Source: Mycolicibacterium holsaticum DSM 44478 = JCM 12374 (GTDB lineage Bacteria; Actinomycetota; Actinomycetes; Mycobacteriales; Mycobacteriaceae). From it: 64,000 nt of DNA. The position numbers and the translations under genes were made by a program. The stretch covers positions 4,402,001 through 4,466,000 of the forward strand of contig NZ_CP080998.1 of assembly GCF_019645835.1 (NCBI RefSeq). Direction: 5' to 3'. The notes below the pieces were generated by a model that searched no databases, was not told where the DNA came from, and saw nothing but the letters and a program-made list of their open reading frames with translations. The stretch's first letter is position 1. Each line of letters begins with the position of its first letter. Positions 11,266 to 20,841 of this stretch are shown in pieces.

Positions 11266-12153
11266 CTACCGGGCCTGGGTCGCTCCCAGCGGGGTGACCG
11301 GCTGCGCCTCGGGTGTCCTTGGCGCGGGCCCCAGGAGGGCGTAGAGCGGCTGCGTCCAGCGGTACCCACCCGCGGAGGTGGTGTAGCTGGTGTGGATGAG
11401 CGTCGAAACCTTGGACACCTCATCGGCATCCGGGTCGTAGTCGCAGACCGCGTCGCCGAGTTCGCACACGCTGATCGTGCGGCTGCCAACGGCCGCGGGC
11501 AGCGGCGCGGGCGCACCGGCGAGGATGGGCCAGTCCTGCGCGACGCCCTTTCCGGCGCCGGGCACCGACGTGACCGAGCCGATGTTGAGCGTGGGGTCGG
11601 CGGGCAGGCGGTCACCGTCGGCGATGAGCAACACCGCCGCCATGTTCGGGTTCGTGCCGAGCGCGTGCAGGTTGCGGTGCACCACCATCGCGCCCTGGGA
11701 GTAGCCCGCGAGCACCACCTTGGTGGCTGGGCAACGCTGGGCGAAGGCCGCGTACTGAGCGCCGAGCGCCTCAGCGCCGGCGTCGACACTGTCCATGAAG
11801 CCGAGCCAGTCGCCGATGCCGCCGTCGTCGGGCACCGCCACCGCGGGGTACTCCACGGCCTCGGCCGTCATCGTGCGCCCGTCGCGCTGCACCAACCGCT
11901 GCAGGTCCAGATAGGACTGGTAGACGTCGTCGCCCATACCGGCGTTCGCGCTCAGATGTCCATCGCGCTGACCGGAGCCTGCGGCGCCGAACCAGTGCAC
12001 GTCGGGGCACCCGGGATCGGCGTGCGAGACGCCTACCGACAGACCAGTGAACGCTGCGCTCGCGAGCGCGAAAGCGCCGGCGAGCCTCGTGATGCGACCG
12101 AACAACAAACCCCAAACCCTTCCCGTCCCGACCGGGACATTCGGGTGGTACAT
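11266..12153 (-). CDS. Secreted cutinase-family serine esterase
   Basis: An extracellular esterase/lipase of the cutinase family, which in mycobacteria hydrolyses lipid esters. A signal peptide (RLAGAFALASAAFTGLSVGVSHA) ends about residue 45. The mature part shows the family opening (CPDVHWFGAAGSGQ), the nucleophile in GYSQG, and the acid/base region with disulphide cysteines (CELGDAVCDYD, then IHTSY). The ATG at 12153 gives 295 residues; a GTG ten codons upstream at 12183 is possible and neither has a strong ribosome binding site. The C-terminus carries a short Pro-rich tail. Confidence 0.88.
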   Translation of the reverse strand: MYHPNVPVGTGRVWGLLFGRITRLAGAFALASAAFTGLSVGVSHADPGCPDVHWFGAAGSGQRDGHLSANAGMGDDVYQSYLDLQRLVQRDGRTMTAEAVEYPAVAVPDDGGIGDWLGFMDSVDAGAEALGAQYAAFAQRCPATKVVLAGYSQGAMVVHRNLHALGTNPNMAAVLLIADGDRLPADPTLNIGSVTSVPGAGKGVAQDWPILAGAPAPLPAAVGSRTISVCELGDAVCDYDPDADEVSKVSTLIHTSYTTSAGGYRWTQPLYALLGPAPRTPEAQPVTPLGATQAR

Positions 12154-12217
12154 CGGTTCGACGGCCACGGCCGTTACGTTCACCGTGCCGTTTCGACTCT
12201 GCGGGAGTCACCGCGGT

Positions 12218-12841
12218 TCAGGCGCTGGGGCGCGGGCCAAGAACTCCGTTGAACAGGAACGTCGTCAACTGCTTGGCCGCCGCGGAGACGTCGAGCTGCT
12301 CTCCGCGCATACTGCTGTCCAAGGCGATGAACCAACACATCCCGAACACCGCCAGTGTCATCTGGCGCGGATCGAACTCGTTGTGCTGCCACCCCGGCAG
12401 CGCCCGTTCTATCCAGTTCATCAGCCCAGCCAGGCTGGGCTCCAGACGATCTCGATAGAACGCCTTGCCGGCGTCGGGATCGCTGAACAACACTATTCCG
12501 AACAGCGGGTTCAGTTCGACCATCAAACTCAAGACCTCTTTGATGAACTTCTCCGTGGTGCGCTCGGGCACGTCAGCCGCGCCACCCTTGGACAGTTCAC
12601 GAGCCTCCTGCACGATGCGGGCCAGCAACTGTTCGAGCGGGAAGACCACGGCCTCACTGAACAACTCTTCCTTGGAACTGAAGTGCTGATACATCAGCGC
12701 CGAATTGACCCCGGCGGCGTCGGCGATGTCGGCGACGCGGGCCGCGCCGACACCGTTGCTCAGAAATACCTCCCTTGCGGCATCCAGGATCAATGCGCGC
12801 CGCTCAGATTTCGGCATCCGACGTCGTACCGGGTTTGACAT
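12218..12841 (-). CDS. TetR-family repressor of the adjacent acyl-CoA operon
   Basis: A 207-residue TetR regulator with the N-terminal helix-turn-helix at about residues 15-60 (AREVFLSNGVGAARVADIA, VNSALMYQHFSSKEELF) and a larger helical ligand domain. ATG 12841 is used, with GGTGCGAG upstream; an in-frame upstream start would add 34 residues without family support. It is divergent from the seven-gene operon starting at 12990, and a palindrome overlapping the predicted promoter lies between them. Repression relieved by an acyl-CoA intermediate is the likely logic, as for KstR-type regulators, but the ligand is unknown. Confidence 0.9.
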   Translation of the reverse strand: MSNPVRRRMPKSERRALILDAAREVFLSNGVGAARVADIADAAGVNSALMYQHFSSKEELFSEAVVFPLEQLLARIVQEARELSKGGAADVPERTTEKFIKEVLSLMVELNPLFGIVLFSDPDAGKAFYRDRLEPSLAGLMNWIERALPGWQHNEFDPRQMTLAVFGMCWFIALDSSMRGEQLDVSAAAKQLTTFLFNGVLGPRPSA

Positions 12842-12932
12842 CTCGCACCATGACCTTCCGGGGTTCTGACGGACGAGAGTAGCTGAGCATTTGCCACCGA
12901 ACGCGTCCGCAGGTGCCGAACGCCGCCGGTAG

Positions 12933-12973
12933 TTGACAGCCACAACGGGTCCAGATAAGTATATAGCTACTTA
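12933..12973 (+). promoter_or_regulatory. Promoter with overlapping palindromic operator
   Basis: A consensus -35 (TTGACA, 12933-12938) is followed after 17 bases by TAAGTA (12956-12961), a fair -10. TAAGTA is also the left arm of a perfect inverted repeat TAAGTA-TATAGC-TACTTA (12956-12973). A repressor bound here would block the promoter. The AT-rich segment stands out in GC-rich surroundings and lies 16 bases before the SDR start. The divergent TetR is the obvious binder. Confidence 0.65.
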
Positions 12974-12989
12974 CTTAATGGGAGGTCGG

Positions 12990-13736
12990 ATGTCGCGGGT
13001 TGCGTTGGTGACCGGTGCAGGCGCGGGGGTTGGGCGGGCGGCCGCATTGCGGCTGGTCCGTGACCGCCAAGTTCACACGGTCCTGGTGAACGACATCGAC
13101 CCGGATGCCGCCGAACGGGTGGCAAGCGAGGTAACCGAACTCGGCGGATCAGGTGTCGCCGCAGTGGGAGATGTCACCTCATGGGACACCGTCTGCTCGA
13201 TAGTCGAAAGCCATGGTCCAGTCGACGTGCTGGTAAACAATGCTGGAGTTCCGCTAATCGGCGCTGAGCCAATAGCTTTCACACAAACCGAACCGGACCA
13301 GTGGGAGCCGTGGCTGCGGCTGAATCTCGACGCCGTCATGTACTGCACCCGAGCGGTGTTGCCAGGGATGCTGGCAAGTCGGTGGGGCCGGATCATCACG
13401 GTCATCTCCGACGCCGCCCGGGTCGGCGAAAGCGGCCTCGCCGTGTACTCCGCCGCGAAAGCGGGAGCGGCAGGTTTCACCCGGGCGGTGGCGCGTGAAG
13501 TGGGTCGCGGGGGCATCACGTGCAATTGCGTGGCGCTCGGGACCCTCAAGCACGGCCGCGTCGCACAGTTCATCACCGAAGACATGGAACGCAAGCTCCT
13601 GCGCGCCTATCCGGCGGCACGTCTCGGAACACCCGAAGACGCCGCTGCCATGATCGCATTTCTCGCCAGTGCCGACAGTGAATGGATCACGGGCCAAACG
13701 TATCCGGTAAACGGCGGCTTCTCGATGGCGGTATGA
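12990..13736 (+). CDS. Short-chain dehydrogenase/reductase, first gene of the catabolic operon
   Basis: A 248-residue NAD(P)-dependent SDR with TGAGAGVGRAAALRLVRDR at the cofactor site, NNAG near residue 92, catalytic Ser (VISDAARVG), YSAAK, and the C-terminal NGGFSM. It would oxidise a 3-hydroxyacyl-CoA, or an alcohol or aldehyde-level product, of the pathway. ATG 12990 follows GGGAGGTCGG; an ATG at 12978 would contain that site within the gene. Its stop overlaps the next ATG as ATGA. It lacks the long loop of the mycofactocin-type SDRs. Confidence 0.9.
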   Translation: MSRVALVTGAGAGVGRAAALRLVRDRQVHTVLVNDIDPDAAERVASEVTELGGSGVAAVGDVTSWDTVCSIVESHGPVDVLVNNAGVPLIGAEPIAFTQTEPDQWEPWLRLNLDAVMYCTRAVLPGMLASRWGRIITVISDAARVGESGLAVYSAAKAGAAGFTRAVAREVGRGGITCNCVALGTLKHGRVAQFITEDMERKLLRAYPAARLGTPEDAAAMIAFLASADSEWITGQTYPVNGGFSMAV

Positions 13737-14521
13737 GCATGGCGGATAGTCACGGTCCAGTCGTCGTCGACCAACGCGATCATGCCCTATACGTCCGGCT
13801 GAACCGCCCACAAGCGGGTAACGCGCTGGACTGGAGCACATTTGAGGGTCTGCATGCGGCGTTCAACAGGCTCAATGACGATCCCGATGTGCGGGTAGGC
13901 GTGTTGACCGGCACCGGAGACGAGATATTCTGCGCCGGTGCGGATTTGAAGTCGCTGCCGCGGGAAGTCGCCGAGAAGCGCAAGCAAGGGATACCGCTAC
14001 CAGACACCATCATGCACAACCTGCGGGTGCGCAAACCGTTGCTGTGTGTGCTCAATGGGGACGCCCACGGAGGCGGCGCAGAACTCGCGATCGCCTGTGA
14101 CATGCGCATTGCAGCCGACCATGTGCGGATCGCACTGCCTGAGGCCCGCGTGGGCATGATCCCTGCGGGCGGTGCTACATACCGGTTGCCGCAGTTGATC
14201 GGCAGAGGTAGAGCCCTGCGCATGATGATGACCGGCGAGCCGGTATCGGCGACGGACGCCTACAACTGGGGCCTGGTGGACCGCGTCGTTCCGCGCACGG
14301 GACTGGCCGACGCGACGACTGAGTGCGTCACGGCGATCCTCGGGAGTGCGCCGCTGGCGGTCCAGACCATCAAAGAGCTTGTCGACACATCGGCGACAGC
14401 GATTTCCGAGTTGATCGATGCCGAGGCAAAAGCCATCGCGCGCATCCAGCGAACGGCGGATGCGGCAGAGGGAACACGCGCGTTCCTGGAACGACGTCCG
14501 CCGGCGTGGTGCGGAAAATGA
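13733..14521 (+). CDS. Enoyl-CoA hydratase/isomerase (crotonase family)
   Basis: A 262-residue crotonase that would hydrate a 2-enoyl-CoA. The oxyanion-hole region FCAGADLKSLP and GDAHGGGAELAIACD are present. Both positions corresponding to the catalytic glutamates of hydratases are acidic (GGGAEL and LPEARVG), so hydratase chemistry is plausible, unlike in EchA4 elsewhere in this window. ATG 13733 overlaps the SDR stop; a second ATG is two codons on. The stop overlaps the DUF35 start. In the operon it should act after the FadE step. Confidence 0.9.
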   Translation: MSMADSHGPVVVDQRDHALYVRLNRPQAGNALDWSTFEGLHAAFNRLNDDPDVRVGVLTGTGDEIFCAGADLKSLPREVAEKRKQGIPLPDTIMHNLRVRKPLLCVLNGDAHGGGAELAIACDMRIAADHVRIALPEARVGMIPAGGATYRLPQLIGRGRALRMMMTGEPVSATDAYNWGLVDRVVPRTGLADATTECVTAILGSAPLAVQTIKELVDTSATAISELIDAEAKAIARIQRTADAAEGTRAFLERRPPAWCGK

Positions 14522-14895
14522 ATCCGCCCTTCGATCCCACTGTTCTGCAAATCGAGGGCGAGACCGTGGTACTGCGCGGTTCAGAGTGCATCGGTTGCAC
14601 TGCACTGCTGTTCCCCGCCCGCGCGGTGTGCGCGCGCTGTGGCGAACAGACCCGCGACTGTTTACTCCCGACGACCGGGGTGGTCCGGACCTGGTGCGGC
14701 ATGTCGATACCGCTGCCCGGCGTCGCCTCGCCGGCCAACATCGCCCGGGTCGAGCTGGCCCCGTCCCTGATCGTGCAAGGCGTTCTCGACGGTGAAGCCG
14801 ACATCGGCGACCGGGTCGTGCTGGTACCGACCCTGATTGCGGCAGGCCAAGAGGCCTATACCGGATACGGTTTCACCCGGAGTGATCATGAATGA
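14518..14895 (+). CDS. DUF35 zinc-ribbon/OB-fold partner protein
   Basis: A 125-residue DUF35 protein with a zinc ribbon (Cys24, Cys27, Cys38, Cys41) followed by an OB-fold (GVVRTWCGMSIPLPG, then a GDRVVLVPTL strand region). DUF35 proteins bind acyl-CoA and partner thiolase-like enzymes; in steroid degradation the DUF35 part of ChsH2 is needed by the aldolase Ltp2. Here it lies directly before the thiolase-like gene, overlapping it by eight bases, so a complex of the two products is likely. The start overlaps the crotonase stop (ATGA). Confidence 0.9.
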   Translation: MNPPFDPTVLQIEGETVVLRGSECIGCTALLFPARAVCARCGEQTRDCLLPTTGVVRTWCGMSIPLPGVASPANIARVELAPSLIVQGVLDGEADIGDRVVLVPTLIAAGQEAYTGYGFTRSDHE

Positions 14896-16039
14896 TCAGC
14901 CACCGACGGCACCAGGTCGTCGCGCCTACGTCGCGGGCGTCGGAATGACCCCGTTCGCACGGGACCACGATGCGCCGTTCCAGGAGTTGGGTGCCAAAGC
15001 TATCCACATGGCGCTCGACGACGCCCAGATCAGCTGGCGTGATGTCGAACTCGTGATCGCAGGGGTGGTCGGGGGGTACCTGGGTGCGGCCTCGTCGATC
15101 GTGCACGAGATGACGTGGACTGGTGTGCCGACCGTTGCGGTGGAGAGCGCATCGGCGACGGGATCAGCGGCCTTCGCCGATGCGTTCGCGGCCGTCGCGT
15201 CGGGCCGCGCGTCATGCGCGGTCGCGGTCGGCTGCGGCAGCCTGACCGCTGCGCTCGGTCAATTGGCAAGTCATTCCGCCAAACCCACCTTGGCGGCGAT
15301 CACCGGCGCGAACCTGCCCCCGACCACGTTTGCGATGCTCAAACGCCAGCGCATGCACGAGTACGACGAGCCAGCCGACGCCGCCCTGGCGGTGGTGGCG
15401 AAGAACTTGCGCAACGCCAGCCGCAATCCGTTGGCGCAGCGCAACACTGCTCTGTCGATGGCCGACATCAAAGCCTCGCCGATGTTGGCCGATCCGCTGC
15501 GTCGCGCGGAATTCTGCCCGACCGGTGACGGCGCCGCGGCGGTCGTCCTCACCGCAGCGCCTGCGCCGGTCGGCCCTTCGATACGTGTTGCCGCCGCGGT
15601 GTCGGCCACAGATCAATGGCATCCGGCCGCGGCGTGCGCGCCCGACCCGGGCATCACCGCTCGCGTCGCGCAGGTCGCCTACCAGGCTGCCGGCATCACC
15701 GCCGATGATCTCGACGTGATCGCGGTCCACGACGCCTTCAGCGTCGAGGAACTTCAGTACCTCGAAGATCTCGGGGTGTGCCCACGAGGGCAGGCAGGAA
15801 TCCAGTTGATGGCCGGTCAATTCGACATCGGCGGTCGCGTGGCGGTCAGTAGCGACGGCGGTCTGATCGGGCGCGGCCACCCTGGCGGCGCAACCGGGCT
15901 GGCGCAGATCGTCGAGTTGGTCAACCAACTGCGTGAGTCCGCAGGTGATCGTCAGCATCCCTGTCCACGAACTGGTTTGGCGCACATGATCGGTGCTGGC
16001 GGCACCTGTTTCGTGCAGATACTCCGGAAAGAGGCGTAA
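14888..16039 (+). CDS. Thiolase-like protein lacking the nucleophilic Cys; candidate acyl-CoA retro-aldolase
   Basis: A 383-residue protein of the SCP2-thiolase/lipid-transfer group. The N-terminal VAGVGMTPFARDHD and C-terminal GGLIGRGHPGGATGLAQ are typical. The loop that normally reads GCATGS or ACASGS reads SASATGS, so the nucleophile is Ser89 (codon TCG at 15152) rather than Cys, and HDCF has become HDAF. Claisen thiolysis is therefore unlikely. Ltp2-type aldolases share this loss and need a DUF35 partner, which is encoded just upstream. It may cleave a 3-hydroxyacyl-CoA to acetyl- or propionyl-CoA plus an aldehyde or ketone. Confidence 0.88.
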   Translation: MNDQPPTAPGRRAYVAGVGMTPFARDHDAPFQELGAKAIHMALDDAQISWRDVELVIAGVVGGYLGAASSIVHEMTWTGVPTVAVESASATGSAAFADAFAAVASGRASCAVAVGCGSLTAALGQLASHSAKPTLAAITGANLPPTTFAMLKRQRMHEYDEPADAALAVVAKNLRNASRNPLAQRNTALSMADIKASPMLADPLRRAEFCPTGDGAAAVVLTAAPAPVGPSIRVAAAVSATDQWHPAAACAPDPGITARVAQVAYQAAGITADDLDVIAVHDAFSVEELQYLEDLGVCPRGQAGIQLMAGQFDIGGRVAVSSDGGLIGRGHPGGATGLAQIVELVNQLRESAGDRQHPCPRTGLAHMIGAGGTCFVQILRKEA

Positions 16040-16044
16040 CACCG

Positions 16045-17607
16045 ATGACGGCACCCACACCTGATGCGCTCTGCGGTACCTATGCCGAGCTGATCGCGAC
16101 GTTCGCCCACCGCCCGGATTCCGCTGTCGCGATTCGCGACGATCAGTCCACGTTGACGTACCACCAGCTGTACGGGCGGGTGGGCGCGGTCGCTGCATGG
16201 CTGTCCGATATCGGCGTCGCGGCCGGTGACACCGTGGCGATCATGATCTCCAACAGCGCGGAGCTCCTCGTTGTCCAGCTCGCCGTCCAGGCGGTCGGCG
16301 CCGTGGGCGCACTGGTCAATACCAACCTCGAAGGTCAGGCCCTGCAGCACATCATCGAGTTGTCCCAACCCATCACGACCCTGGCCGACCCCGCCTCTGC
16401 GGCAAGGCTGTGCGAACAATCGCTGAAATGCCACTCGACAAACGACACCGACATGCAAGCCGGCCTCAGCGGACACCGCGATCCGGCACCATGGCTTGAT
16501 CAACGGTCCGGCACGGGCGCTGACCCGGCGTTCATCAGCTTCACCTCCGGCACCACCGGTGTCCCCAAAGGAGTTGTCCTCGACCAGACGACGAGCGTCA
16601 GGGCACTTTTGGTCGGCGCGGCGCTGGGCCTGCGCGACGGCGCGGAAACCTTCTACATCCCCACGCCCGCCTACCATGCGATGGGGTTGGCGTGGGCGTC
16701 GCTGGGACTGCGGCTGGGCGCCACCCTGGTGCTGCGCCGTCGTTTCAGCGCCAGCAAGTTCTGGCCGGATATCCGCGAGCACAAATGCACTTTTGCCTAC
16801 TACCTCGGCACCATGCCCCAGATGATCTACAACCAGCCGGCGCATCCCGATGACGGCGCACACGATCTGAAGGCGTTCTTGGGCGGCGGCATGCCTGCTG
16901 AGATCTGGGTGGAGTTCGGCAAGCGGTTCAACGTCCAGATCATCGAGTCCTATTCAGGCAGCGACACCGTGGGCGCCTTCTCAAACTTCGGCAACGCGCC
17001 GGTCGGTTCCCTCGGTAAGCCAAGCCCGGACATCGAAGTCCGCCTCGTCGCCGCCGACGGCACCGACGTCCCGGTCGGCCAACCCGGCGAGCTGATCGTT
17101 CGGCCCAAGCAGCCCACCGACCAGCCGGCGATTGTGTACTTCCGCGACGAGGAAGCCACCCGCAAGAAGAACGACGGAGGCTGGGTGCATACCGGCGACG
17201 TGCTACGCGCCGACGCCGACGGCAACTACTACTTCGTAGACCGGTTGCGCCACATGATCCGGCGGCGCGGGGTCAACATCGCGTCGGCTGAGATCGAGAA
17301 TATCCTCTGCGGGCACCGCGCAATCGCCCAGTGCGCGGCCGTCGGAGTTCCTGCAGCGCTGGGTGAAGAGGAGGTCAAACTCGTGGTGCGCCCGTCCCAC
17401 GGGGCAGTCACCGAGGTCGACGTCGCCCGGATCGCCAGCGAATTGCTGCCGGAGTACATGCGCCCGCGGTACATCGAACTCGTCAGCGAGCTGCCGCTGA
17501 CCGTTACGCAGCGAATCATTCAGTTTGAACTCAAGCGGAATTGGGATACCGAAAGCACCTGGGATGTCGAGCTGGGCAGGTATCCGTTCCAGAGCATCAG
17601 CGGATAG
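16045..17607 (+). CDS. Acyl-CoA synthetase (FadD/CaiC-like, AMP-forming)
   Basis: This 520-residue ANL-superfamily ligase would activate the carboxylic substrate to its CoA thioester via an acyl-adenylate. The P-loop motif FTSGTTGVPKGVV (about residue 167), the A5 region ESYSGSDTVGAF, A7 GWVHTGDVLRADADG and the hinge DRLRHMIRRRGVNI are in order. At the A10 position, where a Lys normally completes adenylation, the sequence is VTQRIIQFELK, with Arg490. This could weaken the first half-reaction or reflect local variation. It starts five bases after the thiolase-like gene. The substrate is unknown. Confidence 0.9.
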   Translation: MTAPTPDALCGTYAELIATFAHRPDSAVAIRDDQSTLTYHQLYGRVGAVAAWLSDIGVAAGDTVAIMISNSAELLVVQLAVQAVGAVGALVNTNLEGQALQHIIELSQPITTLADPASAARLCEQSLKCHSTNDTDMQAGLSGHRDPAPWLDQRSGTGADPAFISFTSGTTGVPKGVVLDQTTSVRALLVGAALGLRDGAETFYIPTPAYHAMGLAWASLGLRLGATLVLRRRFSASKFWPDIREHKCTFAYYLGTMPQMIYNQPAHPDDGAHDLKAFLGGGMPAEIWVEFGKRFNVQIIESYSGSDTVGAFSNFGNAPVGSLGKPSPDIEVRLVAADGTDVPVGQPGELIVRPKQPTDQPAIVYFRDEEATRKKNDGGWVHTGDVLRADADGNYYFVDRLRHMIRRRGVNIASAEIENILCGHRAIAQCAAVGVPAALGEEEVKLVVRPSHGAVTEVDVARIASELLPEYMRPRYIELVSELPLTVTQRIIQFELKRNWDTESTWDVELGRYPFQSISG

Positions 17608-17609
17608 CC

Positions 17610-18752
17610 ATGCTGTCTGCCGAGCAGCGTCAACTGCGCGACGCGGTCAGCGATTTCGTCGACCGGGAGCTGATTCCGCACGAGGACGACCCGCTTACCG
17701 CTGAGGTCGTGGATCGACTGTTCGGGGGCCTTCGGCGTCTCGGTGTGTGGGCACTCGGTGTACCGACGCGCTTCGGCGGTGCCGGCGGCGAGACGCTCGA
17801 CCGAATCGTGGTCATAGAACAGCTGTCCCGATCGCATCTCGGCCCGCATCTGATCGGCCGGATGGGAGAGCCGCTGTCGATATTGTTCGCGGGCACACCG
17901 GATCAGCAGGAGCGCTATCTGCTCCCGGTAGTGCGCGGTGAGAAGCTGGGCGCATTCGCCCTCACCGAGCCGACCGGCGGTACCGATCCGGCGGGCAACA
18001 TGACGACAACGGCCGTCCAGAACGGAAACGACTGGGTGCTGGACGGCCGCAAGACGTTCGTCAGCTTTGGTGACATCGCCGACTACGTCGTGGTTTTCGC
18101 GCGGACGGAGGTCAGCGCGGGGACCCGGGGCATCACACCGTTCATCGTCGACGCCGGTACGCCGGGCTTCAGCGTCGTACGCCGCATTTCCACAATGGGT
18201 TCGATGACGCCGGCCGAACTCGACTTCCAACACTGCCTGGTGCCCGATGCGAATCGGATCGGTGAGCCTGGTCAGGGTTTCGCGCTAGCTCAGCAGCTGC
18301 TCGGTACGGCCCGCCTCGAGATCGGCGCCCGCGCCATCGGCGTGTGCGAGCGACTCATCGACCTCGCGGTAACACAGGTGAACAACCGCGAATCGTTCGG
18401 CGCCACCCTCGCCCAGCATCAAGGGGTGCAATGGATGCTGGCCGATTGTGCGATCGAACTCGAAGCGGTTCGCAACCTCACCTACGGCACCGCGATCCGG
18501 GAGCACGACAGTGTCGCGGCTGAACGGATGCGCTGTTCCATCACCAAAGTGCTGGCGTCCGACACGATCTGCAGCATCGCCGATCGTGTCCTGCAGCTGT
18601 TCGGTGGGTGGGGCTACAGCACCGACCTGCCGATCGAACGCTTCTACCGTGACGTGCGGATGTGGCGCATCGTCGAAGGGCCCAACGAAATCCACCGAAC
18701 CGTCATCGGGCGTCTGCTCGCCGAGAACGGAATCCGGTCTCTGCGTCCGTGA
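17610..18752 (+). CDS. Acyl-CoA dehydrogenase (FadE family)
   Basis: A 380-residue flavoprotein that would introduce the alpha,beta double bond into the acyl-CoA made by the upstream ligase. Seen are the FAD/substrate motifs FALTEPTGGTDPAGN and KTFVSFGDIADYVVVF, the helical C-terminal domain (QVNNRESFGATLAQHQGVQ, FGGWGYSTDLPIERFYRDVR), and VEGPNEIHR, which carries the catalytic-base glutamate. It begins two bases after the FadD stop and its stop overlaps the next GTG. Unlike the ChsE heterodimers only one FadE gene is present, so a homomer is expected. Confidence 0.92.
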   Translation: MLSAEQRQLRDAVSDFVDRELIPHEDDPLTAEVVDRLFGGLRRLGVWALGVPTRFGGAGGETLDRIVVIEQLSRSHLGPHLIGRMGEPLSILFAGTPDQQERYLLPVVRGEKLGAFALTEPTGGTDPAGNMTTTAVQNGNDWVLDGRKTFVSFGDIADYVVVFARTEVSAGTRGITPFIVDAGTPGFSVVRRISTMGSMTPAELDFQHCLVPDANRIGEPGQGFALAQQLLGTARLEIGARAIGVCERLIDLAVTQVNNRESFGATLAQHQGVQWMLADCAIELEAVRNLTYGTAIREHDSVAAERMRCSITKVLASDTICSIADRVLQLFGGWGYSTDLPIERFYRDVRMWRIVEGPNEIHRTVIGRLLAENGIRSLRP

Positions 18753-19540
18753 GCTGCCCCCTCGAGATCATCGACACGGGTGCCGCGACCCGGGAGCACC
18801 CGACACCACTGGTGTTCGTCCACGGCACCTCGCACGGTGCTTGGTGCTGGGAGGAACACTTTCTCGGCTACTTCGCCCGACACGGCTATCGGGCGGTGGC
18901 CGTGAGCCTGCGGGGTCACGGCCGCAGCCCGGTCAGCACCTCGTTGCGCAGGGTGTCGCTGGCCGATTACGTCGACGATGTTCGATGCGCGGTATCCAGG
19001 ATCGGCGACGCTCCGGTCTTGATCGGACACTCCCTCGGTGGGTTCGTGGTGATGCAGTATCTGCGGCGGTACGAGTCCCCCGCAGCGGTATTGGCCGCGT
19101 CGGCACCGCCGTTCGGCCAATGGGGCACGCTGTCGCGGACGATACGACGACATCCCGGCTTGATGATGCGGACCGTGCTGCGCGGAAAGTTCGCGCCGGA
19201 CCTGTCCCGTCCCGACGTGACGCGCAGCTTCTTCTTTTCGCCCGACGTGGCAGAGCATCTCGTCCGGCGGTATGCCTCCTGTCTGCAGGAGGAGAGCGAC
19301 CGCGCGCTGCTCGAATGCATGTTCCGTGCCCCTCGGATCCGGCCCCGGGCGATACCGATGCTGGTGCTCGCGGCGGAAAACGATGCCGTGTTCACGGCGC
19401 GCGAGACTGCGGCGACTGCTCGGGCATACGGCGCCGATTGGCAGCTGATTCCCGATCTCGCCCACGATCTGATGCTGGACACTCGATGGCGGAGGGCGGC
19501 GGATACCTTGCTGCACTGGCTCATCCGGCACGGCTTCTGA
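18749..19540 (+). CDS. Alpha/beta hydrolase, last gene of the catabolic operon
   Basis: A 263-residue alpha/beta-fold hydrolase. The oxyanion motif VHGTSHGAWCW, RGHGRS, the nucleophile elbow IGHSLGG (Ser about residue 93), an Asp in AAENDAVF and a His in DLAHDLML form a complete triad. It could release the free acid substrate from an ester at the start of the pathway, or hydrolyse a thioester or lactone. GTG 18749 overlaps the FadE stop as GTGA. There is no signal peptide, so it acts in the cytoplasm. It ends before a bidirectional terminator. Confidence 0.88.
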   Translation: MSCPLEIIDTGAATREHPTPLVFVHGTSHGAWCWEEHFLGYFARHGYRAVAVSLRGHGRSPVSTSLRRVSLADYVDDVRCAVSRIGDAPVLIGHSLGGFVVMQYLRRYESPAAVLAASAPPFGQWGTLSRTIRRHPGLMMRTVLRGKFAPDLSRPDVTRSFFFSPDVAEHLVRRYASCLQEESDRALLECMFRAPRIRPRAIPMLVLAAENDAVFTARETAATARAYGADWQLIPDLAHDLMLDTRWRRAADTLLHWLIRHGF

Positions 19541-19576: not shown

Positions 19577-19610
19577 AAGACCCCCGAAACCTTTCGATTT
19601 CGGGGGTCTT
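19577..19610. terminator. Bidirectional intrinsic terminator between hydrolase and tuf
   Basis: A perfect 13-bp stem (AAGACCCCCGAAA 19577-19589 with TTTCGGGGGTCTT 19598-19610) and an eight-base loop lie between the converging hydrolase (stop 19540) and tuf (stop 19651). The outer A/T pairs give short U-runs on either strand. It separates the catabolic operon from the highly expressed translation genes. Confidence 0.85.

Positions 19611-19650: not shown

Positions 19651-20841
<1,191 letters not shown>

Follow-up and report, generated by a model that had tools for sequence, protein, structure and literature searches.

Three activities are known among thiolase-fold enzymes that pair with a DUF35 protein (thiolase, aldolase and acylase), and a small number of active-site residues discriminates between them. 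The Ltp2-ChsH2(DUF35) aldolase (6ok1) lacks a nucleophilic Cys, and the Tyr of its YDHF motif is the base in enzymes of this type (PMC12329534). Steroid aldolases like Ltp2 also use a second catalytic Tyr, which is Tyr344 in TcLtp2. The Sal-Shy(DUF35) bile-acid aldolase (9myr) depends on the Tyr and Cys of YDCY, and in the benzoylsuccinyl-CoA thiolase BbsAB, whose bbs operon degrades benzylsuccinate by modified beta-oxidation, the BbsB subunit keeps the thiolase Cys. Here, we analyze an operon of seven genes with a divergent TetR gene in a stretch of 64,000 nucleotides from Mycolicibacterium holsaticum (the window: C1:4402001-4466000 of G000, a 5.62-Mb single-contig genome). Its DUF35 gene adjoins the gene of a thiolase-like protein (THL) with serine at the nucleophile position, and it is this active site of the serine type that gives the operon its interest. 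We tentatively favor reading the block as a cassette that is transferable, controlled by TetR and dedicated to breaking down one organic acid; in it, a serine-variant thiolase/DUF35 pair would cleave a 3-oxoacyl-CoA at the end of a modified, Bbs-like beta-oxidation.

Like Cys-type thiolases with HDCF, THL has the thiolase fold and keeps the histidines of HDxF and GHP (His281 and His331). It differs from them by its adjoining DUF35 gene and by two residues: Ser89 (VESASATG) replaces the nucleophilic Cys of the CATG/CxS loop found in canonical and SCP2 thiolases, and HDCF reads HDAF, placing Ala283 where SCP2-type thiolases have their acid/base Cys. The first-pass annotation called the protein Cys-less, which is true of both catalytic positions but not of the whole protein, which holds seven other cysteines. 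Two thiolase-like paralogs in the same genome (L004 and L008) keep the nucleophilic Cys, with QDTD and GEP replacing HDCF and GHP.

We aligned 146 sequences: the window protein, BbsB, 119 database matches and 25 loci. The database matches were the best 120 of 1342, these scored from 7999 candidates, so the clade described here may be larger than counted. Defined by Ser89-His281-Ala283, this ENASATG/HDAF clade comprises 109 of the 146 rows, 107 of them distinct (two are the same protein under a second identifier). Among positions outside the definition, Glu287, Tyr291, Gln340 and His331 are each present in 109/109 clade rows and Met367 in 107/109. The corresponding counts in Cys-type rows are 0/27 for Glu287 and Met367, 2/27 for Tyr291, 11/27 for Gln340 and 24/27 for His331. 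Gln340 thus also occurs in Cys-type rows, which leaves Glu287, Met367 and, for the most part, Tyr291 as the diagnostic positions. Seven of the remaining rows are of the YD type and three fall outside all types (P0062, P0090 and L012). The clade fits none of the tested residue patterns, yet its own positions are fixed. Our searches found no characterized member, and the open-licence literature yielded no paper dealing with either the operon or a DUF35 thiolase of the Ser type.

The proposed pathway would begin with the alpha/beta hydrolase, which may free the acid from an ester or thioester. FadD would then form the CoA ester, FadE the 2-enoyl-CoA, and the crotonase would hydrate it; the BbsD-like SDR (short-chain dehydrogenase/reductase) would oxidize the 3-hydroxyl to give the 3-oxoacyl-CoA, which the THL/DUF35 pair would split by a retro-Claisen reaction. 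At the cleavage site, Ser89 would stand in for the nucleophilic Cys, His281 and His331 would be kept, and Glu287 is a candidate new acid/base. Our guess for the substrate is a bulky, branched or alicyclic acid. We favor this Bbs-like pathway because the operon has one enzyme per beta-oxidation step, with SDR, crotonase and FadE motifs present by eye, because the nearest solved or curated relatives include BbsB and BbsA, and because BbsD scores about as high as the best solved match of the SDR. It is also more economical than an aldolytic pathway.

The SDR has S-x12-Y-x3-K, seen by eye, which we take to be the SDR catalytic motif. Three solved structures match it at 1e-40: an oxoacyl-ACP reductase (145.7 bits), BbsD (7pcs_B; 144.5 bits) and another reductase (143.3 bits). 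Its nearest paralogs in the same genome are 52 and 51% identical. The closer of these belongs to a module (L050) that also encodes a crotonase, FadE, FadD and two thiolase-like proteins that have the Cys, which argues for 3-hydroxyacyl-CoA oxidation. That module, with its ECH (enoyl-CoA hydratase), FadE, SDR, FadD and two thiolase-like genes, lies ~13 kb past the right end of the window (L050:7118-14122; G000:C1:4479117-4486121); one thiolase-like protein keeps the Cys but has HDAAA instead of HDCF. The nearest solved match of the crotonase is a 3-hydroxypropionyl-CoA dehydratase (165.9 bits), and both Glu positions that we presume to be catalytic look present. FadE is nearest to solved acyl-CoA dehydrogenases of the short-chain type, and its presumed catalytic Glu also looks present. 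FadD had no solved-structure match at 1e-60.

We take the product of the third gene to be a DUF35 protein, judging from its domain order, motif and place. It scores just below the cut-off for zf-ChsH2 (23.0 versus 23.2 bits) and further below that for OB_ChsH2_C (17.5 versus 27.1 bits), with both halves in order. In four relatives that we scanned, zf-ChsH2 is above cut-off in three and OB_ChsH2_C in none. The four zinc-ligand cysteines are invariant in 6/6 aligned sequences, one of which (L046) was itself picked by that motif.

The gene arrangement is confirmed, with a single predicted transcript from one promoter. Pfam and NCBIfam matches agree with the families first assigned to the eight genes at this place. 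The seven genes do lie head to tail, as had been claimed: SDR/ECH, ECH/DUF35 and FadE/ABH (alpha/beta hydrolase) overlap by 4 bases and DUF35/THL by 8, while THL-FadD and FadD-FadE are separated by 5 and 2 bases. The TetR gene is likewise present, but its start is most likely at 12841 and not at 12943, because homology begins at residue 34. A single promoter-operator ahead of the operon, also part of the original annotation, gains support from its conservation. Both in the window and in a second mycobacterium (locus L035), the same SDR gene is preceded by TTGACA and, 17 bases further on, a perfect TAAGTA-N6-TACTTA repeat. Allowing up to 2 mismatches, the window has 2 overlapping matches to the repeat (0 and 2 mismatches) versus 0.02 expected. 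As the TetR gene is divergent and the promoter region that it shares with the operon holds a palindrome conserved in a relative, we infer that TetR binds this repeat; it would release the promoter upon binding an acyl-CoA or the acid of the pathway. A simple promoter scan of the window did not list the SDR promoter. We also considered a wider TetR regulon. Genome-wide, up to one mismatch, there is one other site (C1:2483723), and no lipid gene or operon was recognized among the open reading frames and sequence around it (L037). We took this site as chance and rejected the wider regulon.

The first-pass annotation suggested searching genomes for the same gene order, and this search recovered the whole block together with the repeat. 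L035, from a genome (G580) of the same GTDB genus, carries the complete block, TetR included, with gene order unchanged but between flanking genes that differ from those in the window. Identities are 79% (SDR), 70% (ECH), 50% (DUF35), 71% (THL), 70% (FadD), 75% (FadE), 63% (ABH) and 69% (TetR). The flanks of the L035 block (L035:298-16204) include an NDMA-dependent alcohol dehydrogenase, an aldehyde dehydrogenase, an F420-type LLM oxidoreductase, an FMO-type flavoprotein with a weak Baeyer-Villiger family match, an HSL-type lipase, a further FadE and an MlaE permease. These genes may encode an upstream pathway acting on an alcohol or ketone.

In the window, the block is adjacent to tuf. A tuf match was found in 18/21 genomes including its own, and we compared the DNA downstream of tuf in 12 of the 17 others. 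The block is downstream of tuf in 0/12 relatives at E <= 1e-20; one locus there (L063) has only one SDR-like and one FadE-like match (31-32%). In 5/12 relatives, tuf and the cutinase gene are direct neighbors, with match ends 137-312 bases apart. Absence from the tuf site and this adjacency argue that the block moves as a unit: it was probably inserted at the tuf site, repeated loss being less likely, and it is a genuine mobile unit of apparently catabolic character. The G+C content is 64.9% for the operon, 67.0 and 66.7% for the flanks and 61.4% for TetR.

The block is rare among the sampled genomes of the genus (2/396 at 1e-90, its own included). In the other samples, matches occur in 7/301 genomes of the family at 1e-100 (its own and a metagenome-assembled genome, MAG, counted) and, with the query genome counted, in 1/394 of the class at 1e-80, 1/148 relatives of G580 at 1e-90 and 6/396 of the phylum at 1e-56. 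In a protein database, THL has 27 clusters of relatives at 67-79% identity (P0010-P0036), and the hydrolase has 30 at 63-84% (P0129-P0158; the next is at 58%). The size of the longest contig is identical in 12 cases between these THL and hydrolase relatives, and in one of the 12 both are named Mycobacterium sp. Lab-001. This strongly suggests that these two genes, to which the comparison is confined, lie on the same 12 contigs. The cassette reading draws on this co-occurrence, on the L035 block with its repeat, on absence of the block at tuf in 12/12 relatives and on two distant clade members, L046 and L047, that have FadD, FadE, ECH and SDR genes nearby (SDR 49 and 46% identical).

The MAG mentioned above is titled Rhodococcus; on its 6,950-base contig (L021/L036), the block is 98-100% identical as far as FadE, at the contig end. 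This contig is likely mis-binned because the MAG (G296) carries the label of genus g24 rather than g1. We also considered carriage of the block on plasmids. A plasmid search (limit 1e-15) gave no close copy among the best 60 of 302 records, whose listed rows have <=37.8% identity; every best place in the plasmid records is <60% identical, several with E below 1e-40. We rejected plasmid carriage, with no close copy among the matches listed.

Gene contexts elsewhere in the clade vary. Five family-level loci (L030-L034) have FadD-DUF35-THL, and only L030 adds a crotonase-family gene, two genes beyond THL. Neighboring genes were scanned in L030 and L032. In L030, amidohydrolase, ketopantoate-reductase-like and crotonase-family genes follow THL, with an MFS transporter and TetR beyond FadD; L032 carries an MFS transporter as well as two PucR-type regulators. 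L046 also has DUF35, hydrolase, Fe-alcohol dehydrogenase and TetR genes nearby, and L048 and L049 have FadE-like genes plus a weak SDR or FadD match.

Several of these observations weigh against the Bbs-like cassette. The FadD-DUF35-THL trio is all that L030-L034 have in common with the operon. The SDR type is not confined to the operon, its paralogs being as close as the L046 and L047 SDRs. The stretches searched in L047, L048 and L049 showed no four-Cys DUF35 frame next to THL (0/3), and distant clade members may lack the DUF35 partner or have an altered one. The full gene set around the clade is frequent, not universal, so the chemistry may not need the SDR of the operon. The Bbs comparison is itself imperfect: BbsB keeps its Cys where THL has Ser89 and carries Ala in place of Glu287, and the window proteins score far below the curated cut-offs (BbsA, 30.6 versus 250 bits; BbsB, 165.1 versus 750 bits). 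The bbs operon uses a CoA-transferase, whereas the window operon has FadD. Finally, the equivalent Cys-to-Ser change in human T2 thiolase left 100% protein and 0% activity, according to PMC6790690, so a re-built site must be assumed in THL. In support of a serine nucleophile, the priming ketosynthase DpsC shows that serine can work in the thiolase fold; PMC12664062 describes its Ser118-His297-Asp302 and self-acylation. DpsC shares the fold and the Ser nucleophile with THL but belongs to another family with another reaction.

It is possible, though we would not lean on it, that the ENASATG/HDAF clade forms a mechanistic class of its own among thiolase-fold C-C lyases, working together with DUF35. 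Ser89 with His331 or His281, together with the clade-specific Glu287, would replace the two-cysteine machinery, and the operon would be a self-contained mobile pathway for an acid of undescribed breakdown. If the clade does cleave C-C bonds with serine, this would be further chemistry for the thiolase fold and a caution against naming such genes acetyl-CoA acetyltransferase, as in jgi names. The compact operon makes substrate and enzyme both directly testable.

The first-pass annotation proposed retro-aldol cleavage, a serious rival that we nonetheless consider unlikely. Here, the crotonase would make a (perhaps tertiary) 3-hydroxyacyl-CoA, THL/DUF35 would release acetyl- or propionyl-CoA plus a ketone or aldehyde with His281 as base in place of the aldolase Tyr, and the SDR would rework the product. 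THL shares the thiolase fold and, with its putative partner, the DUF35 pairing of Ltp2 and Sal, and the loss of the nucleophilic Cys also fits. However, by residues THL was rejected as an Ltp2-like aldolase: it has HDAF and not YDHF, and the GHP His is kept. His281 and Ala283 stand in place of the Tyr and Cys of Sal, and CtSal Cys304Ala and Cys304Ser are inactive (PMC12329534). In the tree, the YD rows split off with support of 100/99.9 and the THL clade lies on the other side, although the test against forcing them together is marginal (p-AU 0.048). The predicted model of THL (mean pLDDT 94.9) is closer to SCP2-thiolase and BbsB than to Ltp2 or Sal. IpfDE of the ibuprofen pathway (pIBU218, L053:23640-24827, identified by gene order) shares the FadD-DUF35-thiolase trio and has Ala at the HDCF Cys, as in the operon, and PMC9195938 attributes propionyl-CoA to the product of ipfDE; unlike THL, IpfD has YDAF and no GHP His, and it groups with aldolase-type rows. 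The L035 copy adjoins alcohol and aldehyde dehydrogenase genes, but the window operon has no aldehyde dehydrogenase. Aldolytic cleavage is thus not supported. Besides IpfDE, pIBU218 encodes another protein of this kind, which is Ltp2-like (YDHF) and has an OB-fold partner (L053:10939-12503).

Less probable still, THL/DUF35 may cleave no C-C bond and instead use an acyl-Ser89 for acyl transfer or hydrolysis, as in DpsC or PhlABC, while another thiolase paralog ends the cycle. This would leave an operon with one gene per beta-oxidation step without its cleaving enzyme; moreover, PhlC is far in sequence (74.1 bits) and DpsC is not among the solved-structure matches of THL. That THL is catalytically degenerate and only a scaffold of the pathway would suit the loss of both known catalytic cysteines, but is very improbable given Glu287, Tyr291, Gln340 and His331 unchanged in 109 clade rows, a pattern indicating that a functional site is under selection.

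Table 1. Features of the gene block and its borders, in window coordinates
Feature	Position	Strand	Remarks
Cutinase-like gene	11266-12183	-	Flank of the block on the TetR side
TetR-family regulator	12218..12841	-	TetR_N 59.4 bits; divergent from operon; start picked by homology
-35-like TTGACA	12933..12938	+	Also in L035, same 17-base spacing to repeat
Operator-like perfect inverted repeat TAAGTATATAGCTACTTA	12956..12973	.	Overlaps -10 region
GGGAGGT, ribosome-binding-like, ahead of SDR start	12980..12986	+	Read from sequence
SDR; likely 3-hydroxyacyl-CoA dehydrogenase	12990..13736	+	Pfam, NCBIfam, S-x12-Y-x3-K
Crotonase-family enoyl-CoA hydratase (ECH)	13733..14521	+	Pfam, NCBIfam, solved-structure matches
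DUF35 protein (putative), C-x2-C-x10-C-x2-C zinc ribbon and OB fold	14518..14895	+	
Thiolase-like protein (THL), ENASATG/HDAF clade	14888..16039	+	
Ser89 codon, position of thiolase nucleophilic Cys	15152..15154	+	
HDAFSVE (His281, Ala283, Glu287)	15728..15748	+	His281 is Tyr in aldolases; Ala283 is Cys in SCP2-thiolases
His331 codon, GHP loop, as in thiolases	15878..15880	+	
FadD-type acyl-CoA ligase	16045..17607	+	Pfam, NCBIfam
FadE-type acyl-CoA dehydrogenase	17610..18752	+	Pfam, NCBIfam, solved-structure matches
Alpha/beta hydrolase (ABH), last gene of the operon	18749..19540	+	Pfam
Terminator-like hairpin, common to 3' end of convergent tuf	19580..19607	.	Sequence; by eye
tuf	19651-20841	-	Flank beyond 3' end of operon

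The simple promoter/terminator scan did not pick the terminator-like hairpin of Table 1; hairpins were seen by eye at the same position in 5 relatives inspected. Beyond the cutinase-like gene, the window has an arginine deiminase-family gene (window:8048-9040) that, with no match in the other 9, is matched downstream of tuf in 3/12 relatives.

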